Below, one piece after another: positions 1,693-11,821 of a stretch of DNA of 64,000 nt. Source of the stretch: Alicycliphilus denitrificans K601 (GTDB taxonomy: Bacteria > Pseudomonadota > Gammaproteobacteria > Burkholderiales > Burkholderiaceae_C); the NCBI RefSeq assembly GCF_000204645.1, contig NC_015422.1:3303001-3367000 (forward strand), written 5' to 3'. How positions within the stretch are numbered: position 1 is the stretch's first letter; every line of letters begins with the position of its first letter. A model generated the notes under the pieces. The model was not told the origin of the DNA. It saw nothing but the letters and a program-made list of their open reading frames with translations, and did no database searches. A program made the position numbers and the translations under genes.

Positions 1693-2467
1693 GAACTTGC
1701 TGCCGCTGCCCGCCTTCTCCGATAACTACATCTGGATGCTGCACGACGCTCGCCATGCACTCGTCGTGGACCCGGGCGACGCCGCGCCGGTATTGCAGGC
1801 ACTGCATGGCATGGGGCTGTCACTGCGGACGATTCTAGTCACGCACCACCATGGCGACCATGTGGGCGGGGTGAACGCCCTGCGCGAAGCCACCGGCGCC
1901 GCCATCTACGGCCCCGCGGGCGAGGCGATGCCCGAGCCCATCACGCGCCTGCGCCATGGCGAGGCCGTCACCGCGCTGGGCCTGCGCTTCGCGGTGATCG
2001 ACGTGCCCGGCCACACTGCGGGGCACATCGCCTATTACTGCGCCGACGTGGACGGCGCACCCCTGCTGTTCTGCGGCGACACGCTGTTCTCGGGCGGCTG
2101 CGGCCGCCTCTTCGAGGGCACGCCCGCGCAGATGCAGGCCTCGCTCGATACCCTGGCCGCCCTGCCGGGCGACACGCGCGTGTGCTGCGCCCACGAATAC
2201 ACGCTCTCCAACCTGAAGTTCGCGCGCGCCGTGGAGCCCGGCAACCAGGCCCTGCTCCAGTACCTCGGCCACTGCGAATCCCTGCGCCAGGCGGGCCGGC
2301 CCACGCTGCCCTCGCGCATGGACACGGAGCGCGCCATCAACCCCTTTCTGCGCACGCGCGAAGCCACCGTCGCCCAGGCGGCCCACGGCTTCGACGCGCA
2401 CGTGGATCCGCGCGAACCCGCGACCGTGCTAGCCGCGCTGCGCCAATGGAAGAACGAGTTCCGATGA
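1691..2467 (+). CDS. gloB: Hydroxyacylglutathione hydrolase (glyoxalase II)
   Basis: Hydrolyses S-D-lactoylglutathione to D-lactate and glutathione, the second step of methylglyoxal detoxification, in the cytoplasm. The 258-residue metallo-beta-lactamase fold has the metal motif THHHGDH at residues 51-57, a further ligand in DVPGHTAGH, the GDTLFSGGCGR segment, and the C-terminal HEYTLSNLKFA region with the glutathione-site residues typical of GloB. Length and N-terminus (PAFSDNYIW) match the family. The ATG overlaps the start of the divergent methyltransferase, and the stop overlaps the mltD start by ATGA. Confidence 0.95.
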   Translation: MNLLPLPAFSDNYIWMLHDARHALVVDPGDAAPVLQALHGMGLSLRTILVTHHHGDHVGGVNALREATGAAIYGPAGEAMPEPITRLRHGEAVTALGLRFAVIDVPGHTAGHIAYYCADVDGAPLLFCGDTLFSGGCGRLFEGTPAQMQASLDTLAALPGDTRVCCAHEYTLSNLKFARAVEPGNQALLQYLGHCESLRQAGRPTLPSRMDTERAINPFLRTREATVAQAAHGFDAHVDPREPATVLAALRQWKNEFR

Positions 2468-3978
2468 AAATCCTGCACATCCTGTGGCTGGCCAGCCTGC
2501 TGTGGCTGACCGGCTGCGCCACCACCAGCACCCCCAGCGACACCACCTCCTCCGACACCAGCCAGGCCAGCACCGGCGCGACGGCGGTATACCCCTCGGG
2601 GCCGCTCTCACCCATCACGGCCGGCACCGCCAAAGGCCGCGCCGTGGCCGGCATCGACGCGCCGTCCGATCTGTGGGACCGCATCCGCCGGGGCTTCGCC
2701 ATGCCCGACCTGGACACCGACTTGGTGCGCGACCGCGAGCAGTGGTATGCCACCCGGCCCGACTACATGCAGCGCATGACCGAGCGCTCCAGCAAGTACC
2801 TGTTCCACATCGTCGAAGAGCTGGAGCGCCGCGGCATGCCCACCGAACTGGCTCTGCTGCCCTACATCGAGAGCGCCTTCAACCCCCAGGCCGTCTCCAG
2901 CGCCAAGGCCGCGGGCATGTGGCAGTTCATGCCGGCCACGGGCAGCTACTTCGACCTCAAGCAGAATGCCTTCCGCGACGACCGGCGCGACGTGCTGGCC
3001 TCCACGCGCGCTGCGCTCGACTACCTGCAGAAGCTCTACGGCATGTTCGGCGACTGGCACCTGGCCCTGGCCGCCTACAACTGGGGCGAGGGCAGCGTGG
3101 CGCGCGCCATCGCCCGCAACGAGAAGCAGGGCCTGGACACCGGCTACACCAACCTGTCCATGCCCGCCGAGACGCGCATGTACGTGCCCAAGCTGCAGGC
3201 GGTGAAGAACATCGTGGCCGATCCCGTCCGGTTCAGCACCGAGCTGCCGCTGATCGAGAACCACCCCTACTTCCAGAGCGTGGAGATCACGCGCGACATC
3301 GACGTGTCGCTGGTCGCCAACCTGGCGGGCATACGCGAGGAGGACTTCCGCGCGCTCAACCCCTCGCTGCACCGCCCGGTGATCCTGGCCGCGGGCATGC
3401 CGCAGATCCTGCTGCCCTGGGACAACGCCCAGGTGTTCCGCAGGAACCTGGAGGCCTACAACGAAGGCCAGTACGCCAGCTGGACCGTCTGGACCGTGCC
3501 CAGCACCATGAGCGTATCGGCCGCGGCCCAGCGCGCCGGCATGAGCGAGAGCGAGCTGCGTCAGCTCAACGGCATACCGCCGCGCATGATGATCAAGGCC
3601 GGCTCGGCCCTGATGGTACCGCGCGCCGCCACGACGCGCGCCGACGTCTCCAGCCATGTGGCGGACAACGGGCAGATCGCCTTCACGCCCGAGATCGTCA
3701 CGCGCCGCACCACCGTGCGCGCCGGCAAGCGCGACACCGTGGCCAGCATCGCCCGCCGCTACAAGGTCAGCGCCGCGGACGTTGCCGACTGGAACGACCT
3801 GAAGGCCTCCAGCAGCTTCAAGGCCGGCGAACGCGTGGTGATGTACCTGCCCATGCGCCTGACTGCGACGGCGCTGTCGCACTCCCCCGGCAAACGGCAG
3901 GCCGGCAAGGCGATTGCCCAGACGGCCAAGGCCAGCCCGGCGCGCAAGGGCGGCACGCCGGCCAAGCGCAAGCGCTGA
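2464..3978 (+). CDS. mltD: Membrane-bound lytic transglycosylase D with LysM domains
   Basis: Cleaves the MurNAc-GlcNAc bond of peptidoglycan with formation of 1,6-anhydro-MurNAc, probably from the inner leaflet of the outer membrane. The 504-residue protein begins with a lipoprotein signal ending in LTGC (Cys18). The SLT domain (about 110-240) has the catalytic Glu136 in LPYIESAFNP, followed by AAGMWQFMPATG and ALAAYNWGEG. Two LysM-like modules follow at about 335-390 and 415-465, and the tail is Lys/Arg/Ala-rich. The start is the ATG overlapping the gloB stop, because the signal peptide begins there; the open frame further upstream runs inside gloB. The overlap implies co-translation with gloB. 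Confidence 0.93.
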   Translation: MKILHILWLASLLWLTGCATTSTPSDTTSSDTSQASTGATAVYPSGPLSPITAGTAKGRAVAGIDAPSDLWDRIRRGFAMPDLDTDLVRDREQWYATRPDYMQRMTERSSKYLFHIVEELERRGMPTELALLPYIESAFNPQAVSSAKAAGMWQFMPATGSYFDLKQNAFRDDRRDVLASTRAALDYLQKLYGMFGDWHLALAAYNWGEGSVARAIARNEKQGLDTGYTNLSMPAETRMYVPKLQAVKNIVADPVRFSTELPLIENHPYFQSVEITRDIDVSLVANLAGIREEDFRALNPSLHRPVILAAGMPQILLPWDNAQVFRRNLEAYNEGQYASWTVWTVPSTMSVSAAAQRAGMSESELRQLNGIPPRMMIKAGSALMVPRAATTRADVSSHVADNGQIAFTPEIVTRRTTVRAGKRDTVASIARRYKVSAADVADWNDLKASSSFKAGERVVMYLPMRLTATALSHSPGKRQAGKAIAQTAKASPARKGGTPAKRKR

Positions 3979-5510: not shown

Positions 5511-5559
5511 TGGTAGGACGTACAAGATTCGAACTTGTGACCAACGGATTAAAAGTCCG
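5511..5559 (-). repeat. attL: truncated tRNA-Lys 3' half
   Basis: These 49 bases are identical to 11746-11794. Read on the minus strand they give the anticodon arm end, variable loop, T arm, acceptor 3' strand and CCA of tRNA-Lys, and then diverge. With no 5' half present this is not a tRNA gene but the left attachment site. Confidence 0.92.
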
Positions 5560-5676: not shown

Positions 5677-5696
5677 TGCCTACAGATTGCCTACAA
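5677..5696 (+). repeat. Left arm-type site (TGCCTACA repeats)
   Basis: A 20-base sequence beginning TGCCTACAGATTGCC is repeated exactly and in the same orientation at 11669-11688, just inside the other end. It is itself a tandem of two TGCCTACA units, and a third related unit CGCCTACAAG follows at 5700-5709. The position suggests arm-type binding sites for the integrase. The sequence ends 17 bases before the integrase ATG, so binding there could also repress the gene. Confidence 0.6.
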
Positions 5697-5713
5697 CCCG
5701 CCTACAAGCCGCC

Positions 5714-7030
5714 ATGCCCACAGTGCCCAGCCGCGTCAGACTGACCGCCGCCCGCGTTGAATCCTTCGCCTGCCCGCCGGGCAAGTCCCAGTCCTTCCTG
5801 TGGGACACCGTCGCGCCCGCTCTGGCCGTTCGCGCGACACCGACAGGGCGCAAGACTTACACCTTCGAATCGCGCCTGCAAGGCAAGACGCTGCGCCTGA
5901 GCATTGGCGACGTGCGCGCCTGGACGCTGGCCGCCGCGCAGGCTGAGGCAACCCGGCTGACGCTGCTGGTGGACAGTGGCACCGACCCGCGCGAGCAAAA
6001 GCGCCAGCACGAAGCCGAGCAAGCCGCGCAAGCTGCCGCGCTGGCTGCCCAGGCCGTGACCGTGGGCGAAGCATGGGCTGCCTACCTGGCAGACCGCCGC
6101 CCGCACTGGGGCGAGCGCCATTACAGCGACCATGAAGCATTGGCCCGCGCTGGTGGGCAACCTGCCGCCCGTGGCACCCGTGGCCGTGGCGTGACCGTGG
6201 CCGGCCCGCTGCACGTGCTTATGTCCCAGCCCTTGCGCGAGCTGACAACGCCCGCCATCGAGGCATGGGCGCAGCGCGAAGGCCAGAGCCGCCCGACCGT
6301 GGCCCGCCTGGCCTGGCGGCTGTTGCGTGCCTTCATGGCCTGGTGCAGCGAGCATCCCGACTACCGCGCCGCCGTGCCTGAGCGCAACCCGGCAAAGAGC
6401 CGCCGCGCCCGCGAGGCATTGGGCAAGCCCCAGGCAAAGGACGATGCCTTGCTGAAGGAACAGCTTCCCGTCTGGTTCGCCGCCGTGCGAGCCATCCGCA
6501 ACCCTGCCCAGGCCGCCTATTTGCAAGCCCTGCTGCTGGTGGGCGCCCGGCCCGGTGAGCTGCTGGGGTTGCAGTGGCAGGACGTCAACACCCAGTGGCG
6601 CGGACTGACCATCCGGGACAAGGTGGAAGGTGAGCGCGTCATTCCCCTGACGCCCTACGTCTGGCACCTGCTGGCCGGCCTGCCGCGCCGTGGGCAGTAC
6701 GTGTTTGCCGGCGAGGATGGCGACAAGCCCATGAGCAAGCCGCACAAGGCGCACGCCAGCGCCTGCGCCGTGGCCGGTATCGACGGGCTGACGCTGCACG
6801 GGCTGCGCCGCAGCTTTGGCACCTTGTCCGAGTGGCTGGAACTGCCTGCCGGCGTGGTGGCGCAGATTCAAGGCCACAAGCCCAGCGCGACGGCTGAAAA
6901 GCATTACCGCGTCCGGCCCCTGGACTTGCTGCGCCTGCACCATGAGCGGCTGGAAGCGTGGATTCTGGAACAGGCCGGGGTGCAGTTCGACGCCCAGGCG
7001 GAACCGGGCAAGCTGCGCGCCGTAGTCTGA
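5714..7030 (+). CDS. int: Tyrosine recombinase (element integrase)
   Basis: Catalyses site-specific integration and excision at the tRNA-Lys attachment site. The 438-residue protein has an N-terminal DUF4102/arm-binding-like region (about 1-90: SFLWDTVAPALAVRATPTGRKTY and the LRLSIGDV beta strand), an Ala/Gln-rich helical linker (about 95-118), a SAM-like core-binding domain (about 118-245) and a catalytic domain from about 250. Visible active-site residues are Arg279 in GARPGELLGL, Lys303 in IRDK, His362 and Arg365 in LHGLRRSFG, His388 in QGHK and Tyr398. The set is complete, so the enzyme should be active. The ATG at 5714 was chosen; an upstream TTG at 5687 lies inside the arm-type repeats. 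The gene adjoins attL, as is usual. Confidence 0.93.
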   Translation: MPTVPSRVRLTAARVESFACPPGKSQSFLWDTVAPALAVRATPTGRKTYTFESRLQGKTLRLSIGDVRAWTLAAAQAEATRLTLLVDSGTDPREQKRQHEAEQAAQAAALAAQAVTVGEAWAAYLADRRPHWGERHYSDHEALARAGGQPAARGTRGRGVTVAGPLHVLMSQPLRELTTPAIEAWAQREGQSRPTVARLAWRLLRAFMAWCSEHPDYRAAVPERNPAKSRRAREALGKPQAKDDALLKEQLPVWFAAVRAIRNPAQAAYLQALLLVGARPGELLGLQWQDVNTQWRGLTIRDKVEGERVIPLTPYVWHLLAGLPRRGQYVFAGEDGDKPMSKPHKAHASACAVAGIDGLTLHGLRRSFGTLSEWLELPAGVVAQIQGHKPSATAEKHYRVRPLDLLRLHHERLEAWILEQAGVQFDAQAEPGKLRAVV

Positions 7031-7037
7031 AAGTTTC

Positions 7038-7102
7038 GCCCCAGCTAGGCCCGCGAACCGAAGAGCGGGTTTCCCTGCCCGCCTGCTGGGGCACCTTTTT
7101 TT
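7038..7102 (+). terminator. Long hairpin and T-tract after the integrase
   Basis: GCCCCAGC (7038-7045) pairs with GCTGGGGC (7085-7092), and a T7 tract follows at 7096-7102. A second smaller stem, CCCGC with GCGGG, sits in the loop. The loop of about 39 bases is long for a simple terminator, so a structured RNA element is also possible. Confidence 0.55.
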
Positions 7103-7129
7103 CAGGGATGCGCTGAGGGAGGCGCAGAT

Positions 7130-7711
7130 ATGACCGATGAAATCCAAGCCCTGCGCCGCGTGGCGCAAATCCTCGCAGGCGTTGCCACGCCGATAGAGCG
7201 CCAGAACATCGCCCGCCGCGTGGCGCAAAAAGTCAAAGGCGACGATTCCGAACTGGCGCTTTCGCTGCCCCATGCTGCCGCCTTGTTCTGGCCTGGCGAT
7301 GCCGAAAAAACAGCCGAGGTGCTACAGCAAATAACGCGGGCGTTTGATGCTGGCGAGCTCGGCGGATTTATCCCGCGCGAGCATCGGCACCTTCTTTTTA
7401 CTGATTTCATCGTATGGCCGGATTGCCCTCCGATGGCCGCAGATTCGCCGTTGCGCTATTGGGTGCCCGATGCGCCCGTGATGCAGCCCCAGACCCCTGC
7501 ACCCGCGCCCGTGGTGAACAGCCCCAGCAATGCGCCAGGCAAGGTGTGGACTGATGAAAGGCTGGCCGAGGTAAGCGCATATCGAAAAAAGCACGGCACT
7601 AAAAAAACCGCCGAACACTATGGCGTTTCTGAGGCGTTGATTCGGCAAAAACTGCCGGGCGAAAAACCCAAACCAAAGGGCTACAGCGCGTTTACGCATC
7701 GCCCGAAATAG
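7130..7711 (+). CDS. Unknown element protein with HTH-like C-terminus
   Basis: I do not recognise this 193-residue protein. The N-terminal half (about 1-110) is mixed helical and includes LRRVAQILAGVATPIERQNIARRVAQ and an aromatic FTDFIVWPDCPP segment. A Pro/Ala linker follows (about 118-138). The C-terminal part begins WTDERLAEVSAYRKKHGTKK and continues AEHYGVSEALIRQKLP, which reads like a helix-turn-helix of the type that scans for a specific site. It is the first gene after the integrase terminator and precedes the alpA-like gene by a structured 150-base leader. A role as an element regulator is an inference. Confidence 0.6.
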   Translation: MTDEIQALRRVAQILAGVATPIERQNIARRVAQKVKGDDSELALSLPHAAALFWPGDAEKTAEVLQQITRAFDAGELGGFIPREHRHLLFTDFIVWPDCPPMAADSPLRYWVPDAPVMQPQTPAPAPVVNSPSNAPGKVWTDERLAEVSAYRKKHGTKKTAEHYGVSEALIRQKLPGEKPKPKGYSAFTHRPK

Positions 7712-7863: not shown

Positions 7864-8067
7864 ATGGCAAACGCAATCACCCCCTTGGCGCAAGAGTCCC
7901 GCGCCGCACTGCCGACCCGCGAGGCAGCGCACCACCTGAGCCGCGCACAGCAAACGCTCCGTATTTGGGCCATGACGGGGCACCCCATCCAACCCCTGCG
8001 CGTCAATGGCCGCCTGGCCTGGAAAACTGACGACATCCGCCGTCTGCTGGGCGTGGAGGGCGTGTAA
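7864..8067 (+). CDS. AlpA/excisionase-like DNA-binding protein
   Basis: A 67-residue protein with the layout of the AlpA/MerR-like winged helix family. LPTREAAHHLSRAQQTLRIWAM is the helix-turn-helix, GHPIQPLRVNGRLAWKTDDIRRLL is the wing and the recognition tail that ends most AlpA and Xis-like proteins. Such proteins usually switch excision or early transcription of integrative elements. A good Shine-Dalgarno AAGGGA precedes the ATG. The next gene starts on the base after its stop codon, so the two are co-translated. Confidence 0.75.
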   Translation: MANAITPLAQESRAALPTREAAHHLSRAQQTLRIWAMTGHPIQPLRVNGRLAWKTDDIRRLLGVEGV

Positions 8068-8418
8068 ATGATCCTCGGTCACAGCAAGCAAAAAGCCCCC
8101 GGAGCTACCAACACCGAGGGCTTCCAAAACGTCACACACAAGCGCCGCCATTTTAGCAAAAGCACGGCTACCGAAGCGCAGTACCGGCGCATCATCGAGG
8201 CCCTGCGCCGCAGGCCGCACACCAGCTACGACTTGATGACGATTGCCGGCGTGTATCACCCGCCATCGCGCATCTTCGAGCTGAAGGCCAAGGGCTTTCT
8301 CATCGACAAAACGACTGTCACGGTCGTTGATCGCGACGGTTACAGCCATACCGGCGTGGCGCTGTACAGCCTTGTTGCCGAGCCGGAAAACGCCGATGCG
8401 CTGATCGGGAGCGTCTGA
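8068..8418 (+). CDS. Winged-helix-like element protein
   Basis: A 116-residue protein whose middle part resembles a helix-turn-helix of the phage type: YRRIIEALRRRPHTSYDLMTIAG is followed by IFELKAKGFLI, the pattern of a winged helix in which the second phrase is the helix before the wing. The C-terminus is predicted beta (TTVTVVDRDGYSHTGVALYSLV), consistent with a wing. The N-terminal 30 residues are basic and probably disordered. It is tightly coupled to the alpA-like gene before it and the rep-like gene after it. It could be a repressor, an activator or a replication accessory factor. Confidence 0.6.
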   Translation: MILGHSKQKAPGATNTEGFQNVTHKRRHFSKSTATEAQYRRIIEALRRRPHTSYDLMTIAGVYHPPSRIFELKAKGFLIDKTTVTVVDRDGYSHTGVALYSLVAEPENADALIGSV

Positions 8419-8419
8419 C

Positions 8420-9136
8420 ATGGGACGCGACTACAAGCGTTCCAAGGGCGACACAGGGCGCGATGGAGGCGGGTTTGCTGCCATCCCCTGGACAGTGTTT
8501 GATTCGCCCGCCTACGCCCGTTTGAGCCATCCCGCAAAGGCTTTGCTGATGGAGCTTGCGCGCCAATTCGTGAGAGACAACAACGGCAAATTGTTGTGCA
8601 GCATGGCGCACCTGCGCCCGCGCGGCTGGAAGTCTGCCGACGTGGTGCAGCGCGCCAAAACCGAGCTGCTGGCCGCTGGCTTCATCTTCGAGACCTGCAA
8701 GGGCGCGCGCCCCAATCGCGCGAGCTGGCACGCCCTGACCTGGCGCACACTTGACCGGCACAACGGCTACGACCCCGGCGCCCTGGAATCCTTCGAGCGT
8801 GGCGCGTACCGCAAAAACGCTCCCCTTATTCCGTCTCCCGGAACAGGGAAGCGCCCTATTGTTCCGTCTCCCGGAATAGAGACACCCGCTCCTATTCCGT
8901 CTCCCGGAACAATGCAGGCCAATTTGCCCGGCCCCTCTATTCCGTCTCCCGGAAACCATCTAGATAAGCCATCTGAAGGGGCGAAGGATGAGCAGGCAAT
9001 CGACTGTCTCCAAGTGCTGTGGGAGCGCGTGGGCTGCCGTGTGACGTGGCGTGACCCATCGTTGCCGACTGCCAGCAAGCGCCCCAGCAAGCGCCGCACG
9101 GCACGCAAGACGGAGGGCTTGTCCGCCGCAGTTTGA
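8420..9136 (+). CDS. Putative replication initiator with internal iterons
   Basis: A 238-residue protein. The N-terminal 130 residues look like a winged-helix DNA-binding domain: FAAIPWTVFDSPAYARLSHPA, then LLMELARQFV, then a helix GWKSADVVQRAKTELLAAGFI and a beta segment. I associate this type with proteins of small proteobacterial islands that occupy the place of phage O-like replication proteins. The middle (about 137-178) is a low-complexity linker with PSPG four times, each copy encoded by the 16-bp palindromic iterons at 8828-8954. The C-terminus is short, basic and Lys/Arg-rich. An initiator that carries its own origin inside its gene would match the lambda O arrangement. The function is inferred from layout, not from a clear domain match. 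Confidence 0.55.
   Translation: MGRDYKRSKGDTGRDGGGFAAIPWTVFDSPAYARLSHPAKALLMELARQFVRDNNGKLLCSMAHLRPRGWKSADVVQRAKTELLAAGFIFETCKGARPNRASWHALTWRTLDRHNGYDPGALESFERGAYRKNAPLIPSPGTGKRPIVPSPGIETPAPIPSPGTMQANLPGPSIPSPGNHLDKPSEGAKDEQAIDCLQVLWERVGCRVTWRDPSLPTASKRPSKRRTARKTEGLSAAV
8828..8954 (+). repeat. Four iteron-like palindromes, possible replication origin
   Basis: Four 16-bp copies of (A/G)TTCCGTCTCCCGGAA lie at 8828-8843, 8861-8876, 8894-8909 and 8939-8954. Only the first base differs (G in copy 2). Each copy is an interrupted palindrome, TTCCG-TCTCC-CGGAA. Start-to-start spacings are 33, 33 and 45 bases, close to whole helical turns. The intervening sequences are not conserved, so DNA and not only the encoded PSPG motif appears to be under selection. 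Confidence 0.75.
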
Positions 9137-9250: not shown

Positions 9251-10054
9251 ATGACCCAACAACGACTGACTGACCTGGACGGCGTGACCGTCAACGACAA
9301 CACCGCGTGGATCCATCACGCCGCCGGCAAGCTGCGCCTTGACGCGCCGCCCGTGCCCGCGACCGGCAACTACAACGCCGAGGCCGCCGTCACCCGCGCT
9401 GCCCAGGCCTTGCGCGAGCACGGCCCGCGTGCGCTCGAAATCAGGCAATCGAGCGACTGGACGGAGGCCGGGCGACGCAAGGCCGCAGCGCCCGCCGCCC
9501 TGGCGTGCTTTTGGAAAATTGCAAGCGCCTACGACGATGCCGAGCGCGCGCTTGAGGCCGCCAATGAGCGCGAGCGCCGCCTGCTGGCCGTGCCAGCACC
9601 TGACCTGCGCACGCCCGGCGCCGCCATCCGCGCATGGGAAGCCCGCTCGTTCTTCCGCGACCTGGACAAGGCCGGGAAGCTGCAATTCCTGGCCCGCGTG
9701 CAGCAAGGCCACCACGGCGCCGAGGAAGTCCTGGCCGCGCTGATGAGCGGCCCGATGGTGGGGCTTGATGATGACGTGGAGACCGTCCGCACGGCATGGG
9801 AGACGCACCGGCGTGAGAGCAACGCCACCGAGACCGAGGCAATCGAGTGCGACCGCCAATCTGCCCGTTGGGCGATGGCTTCGATCCAGGTTATCGGCGT
9901 GGCCGCCGCTGAAGCCTTCCAAGGGCTGGCCGAGCCGCTGGAAGTGCTGACCCGCAATGCCAAAGGGCAAATGCCTGAAGGCTTCGGAGCCTTTGGTTTG
10001 GCGCCTGACGTGGTGCGCCGCGCCGTCGCCCTGGACGCGCTGAAGGCCGCATAA
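9251..10054 (+). CDS. Unknown 267-residue element protein
   Basis: I do not recognise a family. The protein is predicted to be almost entirely alpha-helical and is rich in Ala, Glu and Arg, with a long helical middle (about 95-130) around SAYDDAERALEAANERERRLL that could form a coiled coil. It has no signal peptide, membrane segment, P-loop or metal motif that I can see. It follows the rep-like gene by 114 bases; that gap holds a plausible GGAAAG ribosome-binding site but nothing else clear. In a lambda-like layout this would be the position of a helicase loader, but nothing in the sequence supports that beyond location. Confidence 0.55.
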   Translation: MTQQRLTDLDGVTVNDNTAWIHHAAGKLRLDAPPVPATGNYNAEAAVTRAAQALREHGPRALEIRQSSDWTEAGRRKAAAPAALACFWKIASAYDDAERALEAANERERRLLAVPAPDLRTPGAAIRAWEARSFFRDLDKAGKLQFLARVQQGHHGAEEVLAALMSGPMVGLDDDVETVRTAWETHRRESNATETEAIECDRQSARWAMASIQVIGVAAAEAFQGLAEPLEVLTRNAKGQMPEGFGAFGLAPDVVRRAVALDALKAA

Positions 10055-10135
10055 CGTTTAGTCACTACCCAGGCCCTGCCGGCGCAGTTTGACGCGCTGG
10101 CGGGGCTGTAAACGGCTGAGAAAGGATCAACCGAC

Positions 10136-10405
10136 ATGAGCGAAACCCGCACCACTGCAAGCAATGGGGCTGCACCCCCCCGCTTGCGTCTGCCGCTGGC
10201 CAGTGCCGGCGATGTTGCGCGCGAGCTGGCACGGCTGTATCGACAGGCCCGAGCCGGGCAAATGGAGGTGCAGGACGCATCGCGCTTGGCCAACATCCTG
10301 CAAATCCTGGCGCGCGTGCTGGAGACAAGCGACTTGGAAGCCCGCATCGAGGAGTTGGAAGCCATCAAGGGCGAAGGGAAGGGGTCAGCATGGGCAACGC
10401 ACTGA
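10136..10405 (+). CDS. Small helical element protein (89 residues)
   Basis: A short protein with an unstructured N-terminus, then helices in which GDVARELARLYRQARAGQMEVQDASRLANILQ is followed by LARVLETSDLEARIEELEAI. The C-terminal Leu/Glu heptads suggest a coiled coil. The pattern of a helix pair followed by ARLANIL resembles small phage proteins found ahead of terminase genes, but no terminase follows here. AAAGGA upstream is a good ribosome-binding site. Its 3' end overlaps the next gene by 16 bases, which starts the run of overlapping small genes. Function unknown. Confidence 0.6.
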   Translation: MSETRTTASNGAAPPRLRLPLASAGDVARELARLYRQARAGQMEVQDASRLANILQILARVLETSDLEARIEELEAIKGEGKGSAWATH

Positions 10406-10608
10406 AAACCCGACTGGAGCGCCTTGAGGGCGCCGTAGACCCGCGCGGCTTGTTGCCGACCATCCTGATTGCACCGGACGGCCCTGACGGCGATGCAGCA
10501 CGCCAGCAAGCGCAGCGACTGCGCCAACAAGGGCACACGGTGATTCTGATTGCCGACGATGCCGACCGGCTCAATGCCGCCGTCGATTGGTTGGAGGGCT
10601 TGGTATGA
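10390..10608 (+). CDS. RLxRLE small protein, copy 1
   Basis: A 72-residue protein that opens with LKTRLERLEGA, then has a short beta strand LLPTILIAPDGPDGD, a helix ARQQAQRLRQQ and a second strand HTVILIADD, ending in a helix. The opening motif recurs in the next two genes, so these are tandem paralogs or at least share an N-terminal coiled-coil module. The 5' end overlaps the preceding gene and the stop overlaps the next start by ATGA. Function unknown. Confidence 0.6.
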   Translation: MGNALKTRLERLEGAVDPRGLLPTILIAPDGPDGDAARQQAQRLRQQGHTVILIADDADRLNAAVDWLEGLV

Positions 10609-10823
10609 GCATCAAGACCCGTTTGCAGCGCCTGGAAGCTGCCCAGGACGCCCGGCGCCGCTGGCCGCTGGCGTGGCCATCCATCGAGGCCGCCGCCGCT
10701 GCCGGCGTGCGTGGCGGCTTCCTGCTGGTGGGCGAAGTCCTGCCGGCTGACGAATGGGCGCGGCTGGCCGTGCCCTACATGCGTCAATTGACTGAAGGAC
10801 ACCATCATGCAATCGAGCATTGA
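10605..10823 (+). CDS. RLxRLE small protein, copy 2
   Basis: A 72-residue protein beginning MSIKTRLQRLEAAQDARRRW, with the same N-terminal motif as its neighbours. The rest (AAAAAGVRGGFLLVGEVLPADEWARL) has one beta strand and a helix. It starts inside the stop codon of copy 1 and overlaps copy 3 by 17 bases, so the three are translationally coupled. Function unknown. Confidence 0.6.
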   Translation: MSIKTRLQRLEAAQDARRRWPLAWPSIEAAAAAGVRGGFLLVGEVLPADEWARLAVPYMRQLTEGHHHAIEH

Positions 10824-11055
10824 GCGCCGCATCGCCCGCCTGGAGGCGCGATTGTTGGAGACCGAGCCGCCGCGCCTGTTTGTCCTGACCATTGGCCGCG
10901 AGCCGCAAGGCTTTACAGCGTGCGCTCCCGTCCTTTGCACCACGGTTGACCGCCTGACCGGCGAGACCTTGGAAGAGTTGGAAAACAGGTGCACCGCGCT
11001 GCATCCCGGCGTCATCGTGTGGCGAGCCATAGGAGGTGATACCGATGCGCCATGA
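10807..11055 (+). CDS. RLxRLE small protein, copy 3
   Basis: An 82-residue protein beginning MQSSIERRIARLEARLLE, a variant of the same N-terminal motif, followed by PRLFVLTIGREPQGF, a strand comparable to those of copy 1, and a C-terminal LEELENRCTALHPGVIVWRAIGG. AAGGA precedes the ATG. It overlaps the next gene by 11 bases. Function unknown. Confidence 0.6.
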   Translation: MQSSIERRIARLEARLLETEPPRLFVLTIGREPQGFTACAPVLCTTVDRLTGETLEELENRCTALHPGVIVWRAIGGDTDAP

Positions 11056-11745: not shown

Positions 11746-11794
11746 TGGTAGGACGTACAAGATTCGAACTTGTGACCAACGGATTAAAAGTCCG
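11746..11794 (-). repeat. attR: 3' half of the intact tRNA-Lys
   Basis: Identical over 49 bases to attL at 5511-5559. Here it is joined to the tRNA 5' half, so insertion left the tRNA gene whole at this end. Confidence 0.92.
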
Positions 11795-11821
11795 CTGCTC
11801 TACCAACTGAGCTAACGTCCC
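11746..11821 (-). tRNA. tRNA-Lys (anticodon UUU)
   Basis: A complete 76-nucleotide tRNA with encoded CCA. The D arm contains TAGCTCAGTTGGTAGAGC, the anticodon arm is CGGACTTTTAATCCG with anticodon TTT, and the T arm has GTTCGAATC. The acceptor stem closes with a G1-U72 wobble. It is the integration site of the neighbouring element. As a UUU-reading tRNA it should carry t6A37, the modification further processed by the tcdA product encoded next door. Confidence 0.95.

Follow-up and report, generated by a model that had tools for sequence, protein, structure and literature searches.

Introduction

The iterons of phage lambda are interrupted palindromes. Phage-inducible chromosomal islands (PICI) carry an integrase, an AlpA-type regulator and an initiator with its origin, to which capsid-forming PICI (cf-PICI) add a capsid module. 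Here we describe an array of four interrupted palindromes inside a putative replication initiator gene, carried by a 6.2-kb island of Alicycliphilus denitrificans K601 which is integrated at a tRNA-Lys gene. The window, meaning the whole 64,000-nucleotide stretch analysed, is positions 3,303,001-3,367,000 of NC_015422.1 (forward strand), and coordinates of its features are given in window numbering. Comparison with related loci argues strongly that the array is read by the protein of its own gene, and the array is a good candidate for the origin of the island.

The closest described systems are summarised here from excerpts of the cited papers. In lambda and the Stx phages the origin lies in the middle of gene O and consists of iterons and an AT-rich tract (PMC7466680). 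Plasmid pSK41 has four Rep boxes centrally in rep, the product of which has a winged-helix N-terminal domain and a dispensable linker encoded by the origin; one staphylococcal Rep has a helix-turn-helix (HTH) of pfam13730 (PMC5703833). The iterons of RepA_N replicons converge on a poly-A tract (PMC7145576). In PLE, a satellite found in Vibrio, the DNA-binding domain of RepA covaries with the origin, and the iterons are semi-palindromic (PMC8263062, PMC7145576). Gram-negative PICI have their origin directly 3' of the initiator gene, as an AT-rich region flanked by two sets of iterons, and the primase is sometimes fused to the initiator (PMC6092414). We found no description of the present array in the titles and abstract openings of the papers listed by searches of an open-licence library, most subscription papers and all preprints being outside its scope.

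Results

The four palindromes and their occurrence in related loci

The original prediction, made from the sequence of the window, had placed four 16-bp copies with arms TTCCG/CGGAA in the gene, and this description proved exact. The four copies show 0 mismatches, their starts are spaced 33, 33 and 45 bp, and the pairing arms are exactly those 5 bp at 4/4 sites, the next base pairing at 0/4 (Table 1). When up to three mismatches were allowed, the window still contained these 4 matches and no others, while 100 shuffles had a mean of 0.48 and never more than 2. In the genome of the strain (5,070,751 bases) the exact copies of the 15-mer are these four, and one extra match with two mismatches lies elsewhere; since a backwards-read control pattern gave 10 genome matches at two or fewer mismatches, only the exact cluster counts.

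Related loci numbered 89, of which at least 80 came from genomes and 9 from viral contigs; as the genome figure is a lower bound, the counts below are not a census. Together with the window these made 90 loci, from which a 77-locus alignment was prepared after leaving out seven without a 3' anchor (L025, L043, L061, L069, L079, L081, L085), five with a poor frame fit (L072, L080, L082, L083, L084) and one duplicate (L087). By eye, L072, L082, L083 and L084 show palindromes with different arms. Adding ten loci (L096, L102, L103, L105, L111, L114, L116, L117, L121, L123) gave a set of 87, window included, in which an array of the same build was found in integrative elements, mostly of Burkholderiales by title. 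Because the frame 0/33/66/111 was imposed during alignment, the measure of its conservation is the count of exact matches: CCG, 5 bp and CGG stand at all four sites in 76/87 loci. The arm bases differ between islands and mostly agree inside one island, so that repeats which vary between islands and palindromes which persist at the same place, the test put forward with the original prediction, were indeed observed across the loci.

In the 77 aligned loci the array lies inside or directly behind the gene by construction, having been sought there. The exact 3' motif was present in 19/398 genomes of the family, and the backwards pattern was absent (0) among the matches listed. This motif defined loci L095-L122 (n=28; 9 viral and 19 genome loci, several repeating earlier ones), and an HTH gene was found within 700 bp upstream of the array in 26/28; the exceptions are L109, which is the same locus as L123, and perhaps L097, which was examined over 5.3 kb of its 31-kb contig. 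A tblastn search returned 0 phage records and one weak plasmid match (39.8% identity over 43%).

Conservation in the 77 loci starts with the A-rich stretch that precedes site 1, extends through the second CCATCT and ends abruptly thereafter. In the tail, ACCATCTAGAnAnGCCATCT, 15/20 columns carry the same base in 72-76/77 loci. The half-sites (L and R for the left and right half of a site) fall into classes when compared over the 87 loci: 1R, 2R, 3L and 4L are mutually alike, with 84-93% agreement at y2, as are 2L and 3R (82% at y2, 98% at y3), and 1L and 4R are distinct. At y1 all except 4R are fairly similar (71-91%). AGAG flanks sites 1 and 2 on the right, and CT flanks sites 3 and 4 on the left; since the extended half-sites CGGnnnAG and CTnnnCCG thus point centrewards, sites 1-2 face sites 3-4. 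The spacers are alike within a locus, the third base being identical between sites 2 and 3 in 64/77 loci and the fourth base between sites 1 and 4 in 70/77. In L009 (site 3), L016 (site 4) and L050 (site 2) the 5-bp spacer of a single site is flipped as a block with respect to those of the remaining three, which resembles a copy made by template switching in the palindrome; candidates for such a flip number 14 of 348 sites, several of them weak.

The encoded protein and its covariation with the arms

The 238-aa protein has 1021 homologues at an E value of 0.001 or better, and its relatives are named 'hypothetical protein' throughout among the 120 matches listed. Three PHROG families annotated as replication initiation, 270, 678 and 428, are matched by 59, 47 and 45 of 88 alignment members respectively at E values up to 0.1. 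The best value for PHROG 678, which is O-like, is 1.1e-6, the window member itself giving no match to it. Pfam Phage_rep_O and the RepA_N profile are each reached by 1/88 (E 0.034 and 0.024), and pfam13730 is weakly matched in the family.

An N-terminal winged-helix DNA-binding domain, which the original prediction had also suggested, is confidently predicted by AlphaFold for residues 20-130. The model has helices at 62-68 and 73-86 and a wing at 89-93/103-106, and its ten-residue mean pLDDT (predicted local distance difference test score) is 93-98 over residues 21-130, except for 75 at 91-100. Behind the winged helix these means are 55-69, with one short helix at 197-204. The same prediction had likened the position of the array to that in lambda, between a DNA-binding and a partner-binding domain; that comparison finds no support in this form, as the part behind the array is unlike among relatives and absent in several. 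A sequence search of solved structures using the alignment gave no match up to E 1.

Mutual information first indicated residues 62, 73, 75 and 77 as covarying with the arm bases (77 loci, with weighting as the control for descent). With protein distance regressed out over 87 loci, residues 62 (r 0.317) and 77 (r 0.210) lie above all 200 permutation maxima, of which the largest was 0.162 and the 95% level 0.141; residues 46 (0.136) and 44 (0.116) fall within the permutation range. In 12 split halves the residues chosen were 77 (eight times), 73 (seven), 62 (five) and 75 (five), all others being chosen at most twice, and the held-out accuracy was 0.663 vs 0.492. Leave-one-out prediction from the four residues, which had been chosen on the same full data, reached 0.762 against 0.633 for all other variable columns, 0.504 for four columns drawn at random (at most 0.697 in 300 draws), and random pairs gave 0.417. 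Among 41 disjoint close pairs of loci, residue 62 differs in 1/17 pairs with equal arms and in 16/24 with different arms; residues 114, 71, 73, 106, 67, 77 and 41 also gave p < 0.03 in this test (70 columns, uncorrected). These tests reduce the effect of shared descent and do not remove it.

Fourteen sets of the four residues 62/73/75/77 were seen more than once, nine with a single arm triplet and five mixed. The former comprise RAMT with TAC (5 loci), RAVD with AAC (3), RAMS with TAC (3), RVMT with TAC (3) and five sets seen twice; the latter are AAVT (TGT 6, CGT 3), RAVQ (AAC 6, ACA 1), RNMT, YKVT and LNTS. The clearest covarying residues are 62 and 77, with 73 and 75 weaker. Residue 62 and the stretch 73-77 are the places at which an HTH is expected to contact DNA; this is the strongest single argument. 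On this sequence evidence the array is very probably bound by the protein of its own gene, and the binding of the repeats proposed in the original prediction is strongly supported.

Alternative explanations of the array

The repeats encode a PSPG motif, and they could in principle be a repeat at the protein level, a linker or binding motif with the likeness of the DNA as a by-product. This would agree with the 64 of 77 unique arrays that are in frame throughout. A further six are in frame with an internal stop, and seven are out of frame with the gene, five of these in another frame with an internal stop and two wholly behind the stop; in several loci the open reading frame (ORF) ends before or inside the array and the palindromes continue. 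Since the out-of-frame arrays include those of isolates (L052, L063, L075) and of a complete chromosome (L070), draft errors are no general excuse. Synonymous codons varying freely under a kept protein motif, which the original prediction had named as the outcome against it, do not occur, and the array persists also where it is out of frame. Among 37 relatives that were read, the four motifs mostly persist and the residues around them change (VPSPGT, TPSPGV, and GPSPGP in L015), those before and after the motif in step, such that the DNA arms stay complementary as a palindrome demands. In L123 no array follows the initiator gene (136 aa), and the array lies about 2.4 kb upstream in another ORF (L123 6750-7721, 9495-9905), the region being flanked by two identical ORFs (2289-3221 and 10036-10968). 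The linker is also predicted with low pLDDT (ten-residue means 57-69). A protein repeat is refuted by the out-of-frame arrays and is barely credible; judged by these comparisons, the array is a DNA element. We propose that its in-frame placement is incidental, the codons of the linker carrying the DNA sites, and that the protein tail may change or disappear freely. A nucleic-acid alternative would be that the transcript forms a structured RNA or single-strand hairpins, since a short hairpin could arise at each site and the half-site pairs 1R:4L, 2R:3L and 2L:3R are complementary. G-U pairs, however, show no clear enrichment among the non-Watson-Crick pairs; they amount to 22/258 within sites (8.5%, against 10.7% expected from the composition of the columns), to 27/115 in the nested pairing (23.5%, 19.7% expected, a small excess) and to 15/73 in the crossed one (20.5%, 22.9% expected), and 2R agrees more closely with 4L (93/90% at y2/y3) than with 3L (86/72%), its partner in the nested pairing. 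RNA pairing at the array is therefore disfavoured, and we regard it as most improbable. In a separate Rfam scan the island came near no cut-off over the array (mir-557 at 8810-8863, 20 vs 93 bits), and in the seven loci scanned no match there was at gathering level.

An operator array, through which a winged-helix regulator represses or tunes its own operon or the genes behind it, is a more serious competitor, as the evidence for binding cannot separate an initiator from a repressor and many of the structural neighbours of the model are transcription regulators. Against it, the gene carries the array at its 3' end, the genes behind differ between elements, the families matched are replication-initiation families, and a four-site frame kept in 76/87 loci exceeds, in our own judgement, the usual need of an operator; we consider this explanation unlikely, though the likeliest of the four. 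A packaging (cos/pac) site, or part of one bound by a regulator and serving the element's own or a helper's terminase, would suit the satellite-like loci in which the matched stretch is followed, 0.8-2.7 kb from its start, by a capsid gene. There are ten of these among the 89 (L087 repeats L015), with a protease in 10/10, a portal in eight and a large terminase in eight. In the same set 79/89 stretches are without that capsid family, other packaging families not having been sought and many stretches being short, and the arm bases covary with a replication-type HTH protein; a packaging function is accordingly improbable, more so than an operator.

Proposed function as a replication origin

By analogy with lambda O, pSK41 Rep and PLE RepA, the array is probably the replication origin of the island. 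The winged-helix protein would bind the 162-bp array within its own gene, with dimers on each palindrome, and the nucleoprotein complex, in which sites 1-2 face sites 3-4, would open nearby DNA. The host helicase would then be brought in, either directly or via island genes (here perhaps the PF10410 protein), and the excised island would be copied as a result.

Several observations weigh against an origin served by this protein. The window protein matches no Pfam, PHROG or NCBIfam family, and Foldseek gave no PDB match at E 0.001, its list consisting mostly of transcription regulators. No conserved C-terminal partner domain was found, the tails behind the array being dissimilar between relatives and absent in several. 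In the distance-controlled covariation analysis, residue 73 ranks fifth of 89 columns, inside the permutation range (0.097), and residue 75 falls outside the 14 best; residues 114, 71, 106 and 67 score as well in the pair test, in which only residue 62 would survive a Bonferroni correction over 70 columns. A 40-bp stretch of 70% AT is present in 0/77 arrays, in 1/77 of the 280 bp before them, in 7/75 of the 280 bp behind and in 6/72 of the next 400 bp, and AT is raised by only 5-11 points over the 60-80 bp directly behind the array. No single loader accompanies the module, since homologues of the PF10410 gene occur in 2/89 loci (L017 and L035, with no Pfam PF10410 match in either) and a helicase and Toprim primase pair is nearby in seven. 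Finally, as the identical ORFs flanking the region in L123 are what we take to be transposase-like, a recent rearrangement may have split gene and array there, and that element may be inactive.

The island and the surroundings of related arrays

The island is bounded by an exact direct repeat of 49 bp, and its features are collected in Table 1. The product of the gene at 7130-7711, with its DnaG-type domain, is a possible helicase recruiter on the strength of its Pfam match. A 267-aa gene behind the initiator (9251-10054) has no significant family match, and relatives of it were found in 2/89 loci. The int-alpA RNA (RF02996) was also found in L015 and L082 of the seven loci scanned, so this RNA accompanies some of these islands. 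No empty attachment site was demonstrated in the genus: only one relative gave a good match to the left flank gene, and there it lies on a different contig from tRNA-Lys. In genome G399 a 45-bp copy of tRNA-Lys lies about 9.5 kb before tRNA-Lys, which suggests another element at the same site there.

Table 1. Features of the island in window coordinates, with the basis of each assignment
Feature	Position	Strand	Basis
Left attachment repeat	5511..5559	.	49-bp exact repeat
Tyrosine integrase of the island	5687..7030	+	PF00589, PF13356; PHROG 1
int-alpA RNA, between integrase and next gene	7038..7107	+	RF02996, 55.5 bits vs gathering 35.8
Gene with DnaG-type helicase-binding domain, outside a primase	7130..7711	+	PF10410, E 2.3e-5, 25.0 bits vs cut-off 20.6
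Small AlpA/excisionase-like gene	7864..8067	+	weak PHROG 66 match, E 0.028
Winged-helix regulator HTH_39	8068..8418	+	PF14090, E 3.8e-13
Putative replication initiator gene, 238 aa (N-terminal winged helix, array, variable tail)	8420..9136	+	open ORF; homologues; AlphaFold2 model
Predicted winged-helix domain, residues 20-130	8477..8809	+	AlphaFold2 pLDDT
Codon of residue 62 (start of helix 62-68), covarying with the arms	8603..8605	+	partial r, pair test
Predicted recognition helix, residues 73-86	8636..8677	+	AlphaFold2 and covariation of 77 (clearest), 73, 75
Whole conserved array cassette (162 bp)	8813..8974	+	column conservation, 77 loci; sharp stop after second CCATCT
Site 1, interrupted palindrome	8828..8843	.	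pattern match
Site 2, interrupted palindrome	8861..8876	.	pattern match
Site 3, interrupted palindrome, opposite orientation by half-site class	8894..8909	.	pattern match, half-site comparison
Site 4, interrupted palindrome, opposite orientation by half-site class	8939..8954	.	pattern match, half-site comparison
Conserved tail ACCATCTAGAnAnGCCATCT, two CCATCT whose starts are 13 bp apart	8955..8974	+	column conservation
Right attachment repeat within tRNA-Lys (11746-11821, -)	11746..11794	.	49-bp exact repeat

Within 8 kb of the array in the 89 loci we found an integrase-family ORF in 57, AlpA-type genes in 41 and 31 (two overlapping families) and an HTH_39-like gene in 46. A topoisomerase-like family (PHROG 6247) is represented in eight loci. 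By their gene content the related islands look like phage satellites; nine ORFs of the window island were searched, with no capsid match among them. In the same genus, L124 (G004:C1:1736000-1750000) has an initiator and array followed by relatives of capsid, protease, portal, HNH and terminase genes. Close to related islands, C4 antisense RNA (in two loci) and Proteo-phage-1 RNA gave matches at L052 15315-15403, L063 19173-19259 and L082 12115-12187.

Discussion

The 87 loci and 1021 protein relatives form a large natural set of matched initiator-iteron pairs, from which the rules by which a winged helix reads an origin, and those of compatibility between islands, become directly testable. The module is likely to be that of replication for widespread Burkholderiales islands, some of them satellite-like. 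A further reading goes beyond this, namely that the array is a portable origin cassette of a separate kind, some 160 bp long, with four centre-facing palindromes, two half-site classes, a fixed frame and no AT-rich tract. In it a nearly invariant TCTAGA/CCATCT tail would replace that tract as the opening or priming site, the initiator would read the arms by a simple residue code, and the whole could be carried in a different frame or apart from its gene. We put this forward tentatively, as it is more doubtful than the origin function itself; the TCTAGA/CCATCT tail and the missing AT-rich tract could make the array more than a new family of known design.

The comparison with described systems is made as far as the excerpts of the published accounts extend. 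Like lambda O, the present gene contains four iterons (PMC7466680), and the O-like PHROG is matched by about half of the alignment members; unlike in lambda, there is neither an AT-rich tract nor a conserved C-terminal half, and no lambda-P-family match was obtained among the island genes searched. With the excerpted PICI the array shares an integrated island and an origin candidate at the 3' side of the initiator, and it differs from them in having four palindromes in one frame, no AT-rich region and a small HTH protein without a primase. PLE resembles it as an integrated satellite-type element with its own initiator, semi-palindromic iterons and a covarying binding domain; in the accounts excerpted, PLE has three iterons, in a noncoding region apart from repA, and a conserved C-terminal domain, in all of which the present array differs. 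Compared with RepA_N iterons as described there, it has no A-tract between the arms, GC-rich arms and a 33/33/45 frame with facing halves, and it belongs to Betaproteobacterial islands where RepA_N belongs to Firmicute plasmids. The nearest published design is pSK41 Rep, of the RepA_N type, which is alike in its N-terminal winged helix and four initiator sites within the gene and, as excerpted, differs in the conserved C-terminal domain that the present family lacks. Our verdict is that the array and its gene represent a new in-gene initiator-iteron family.
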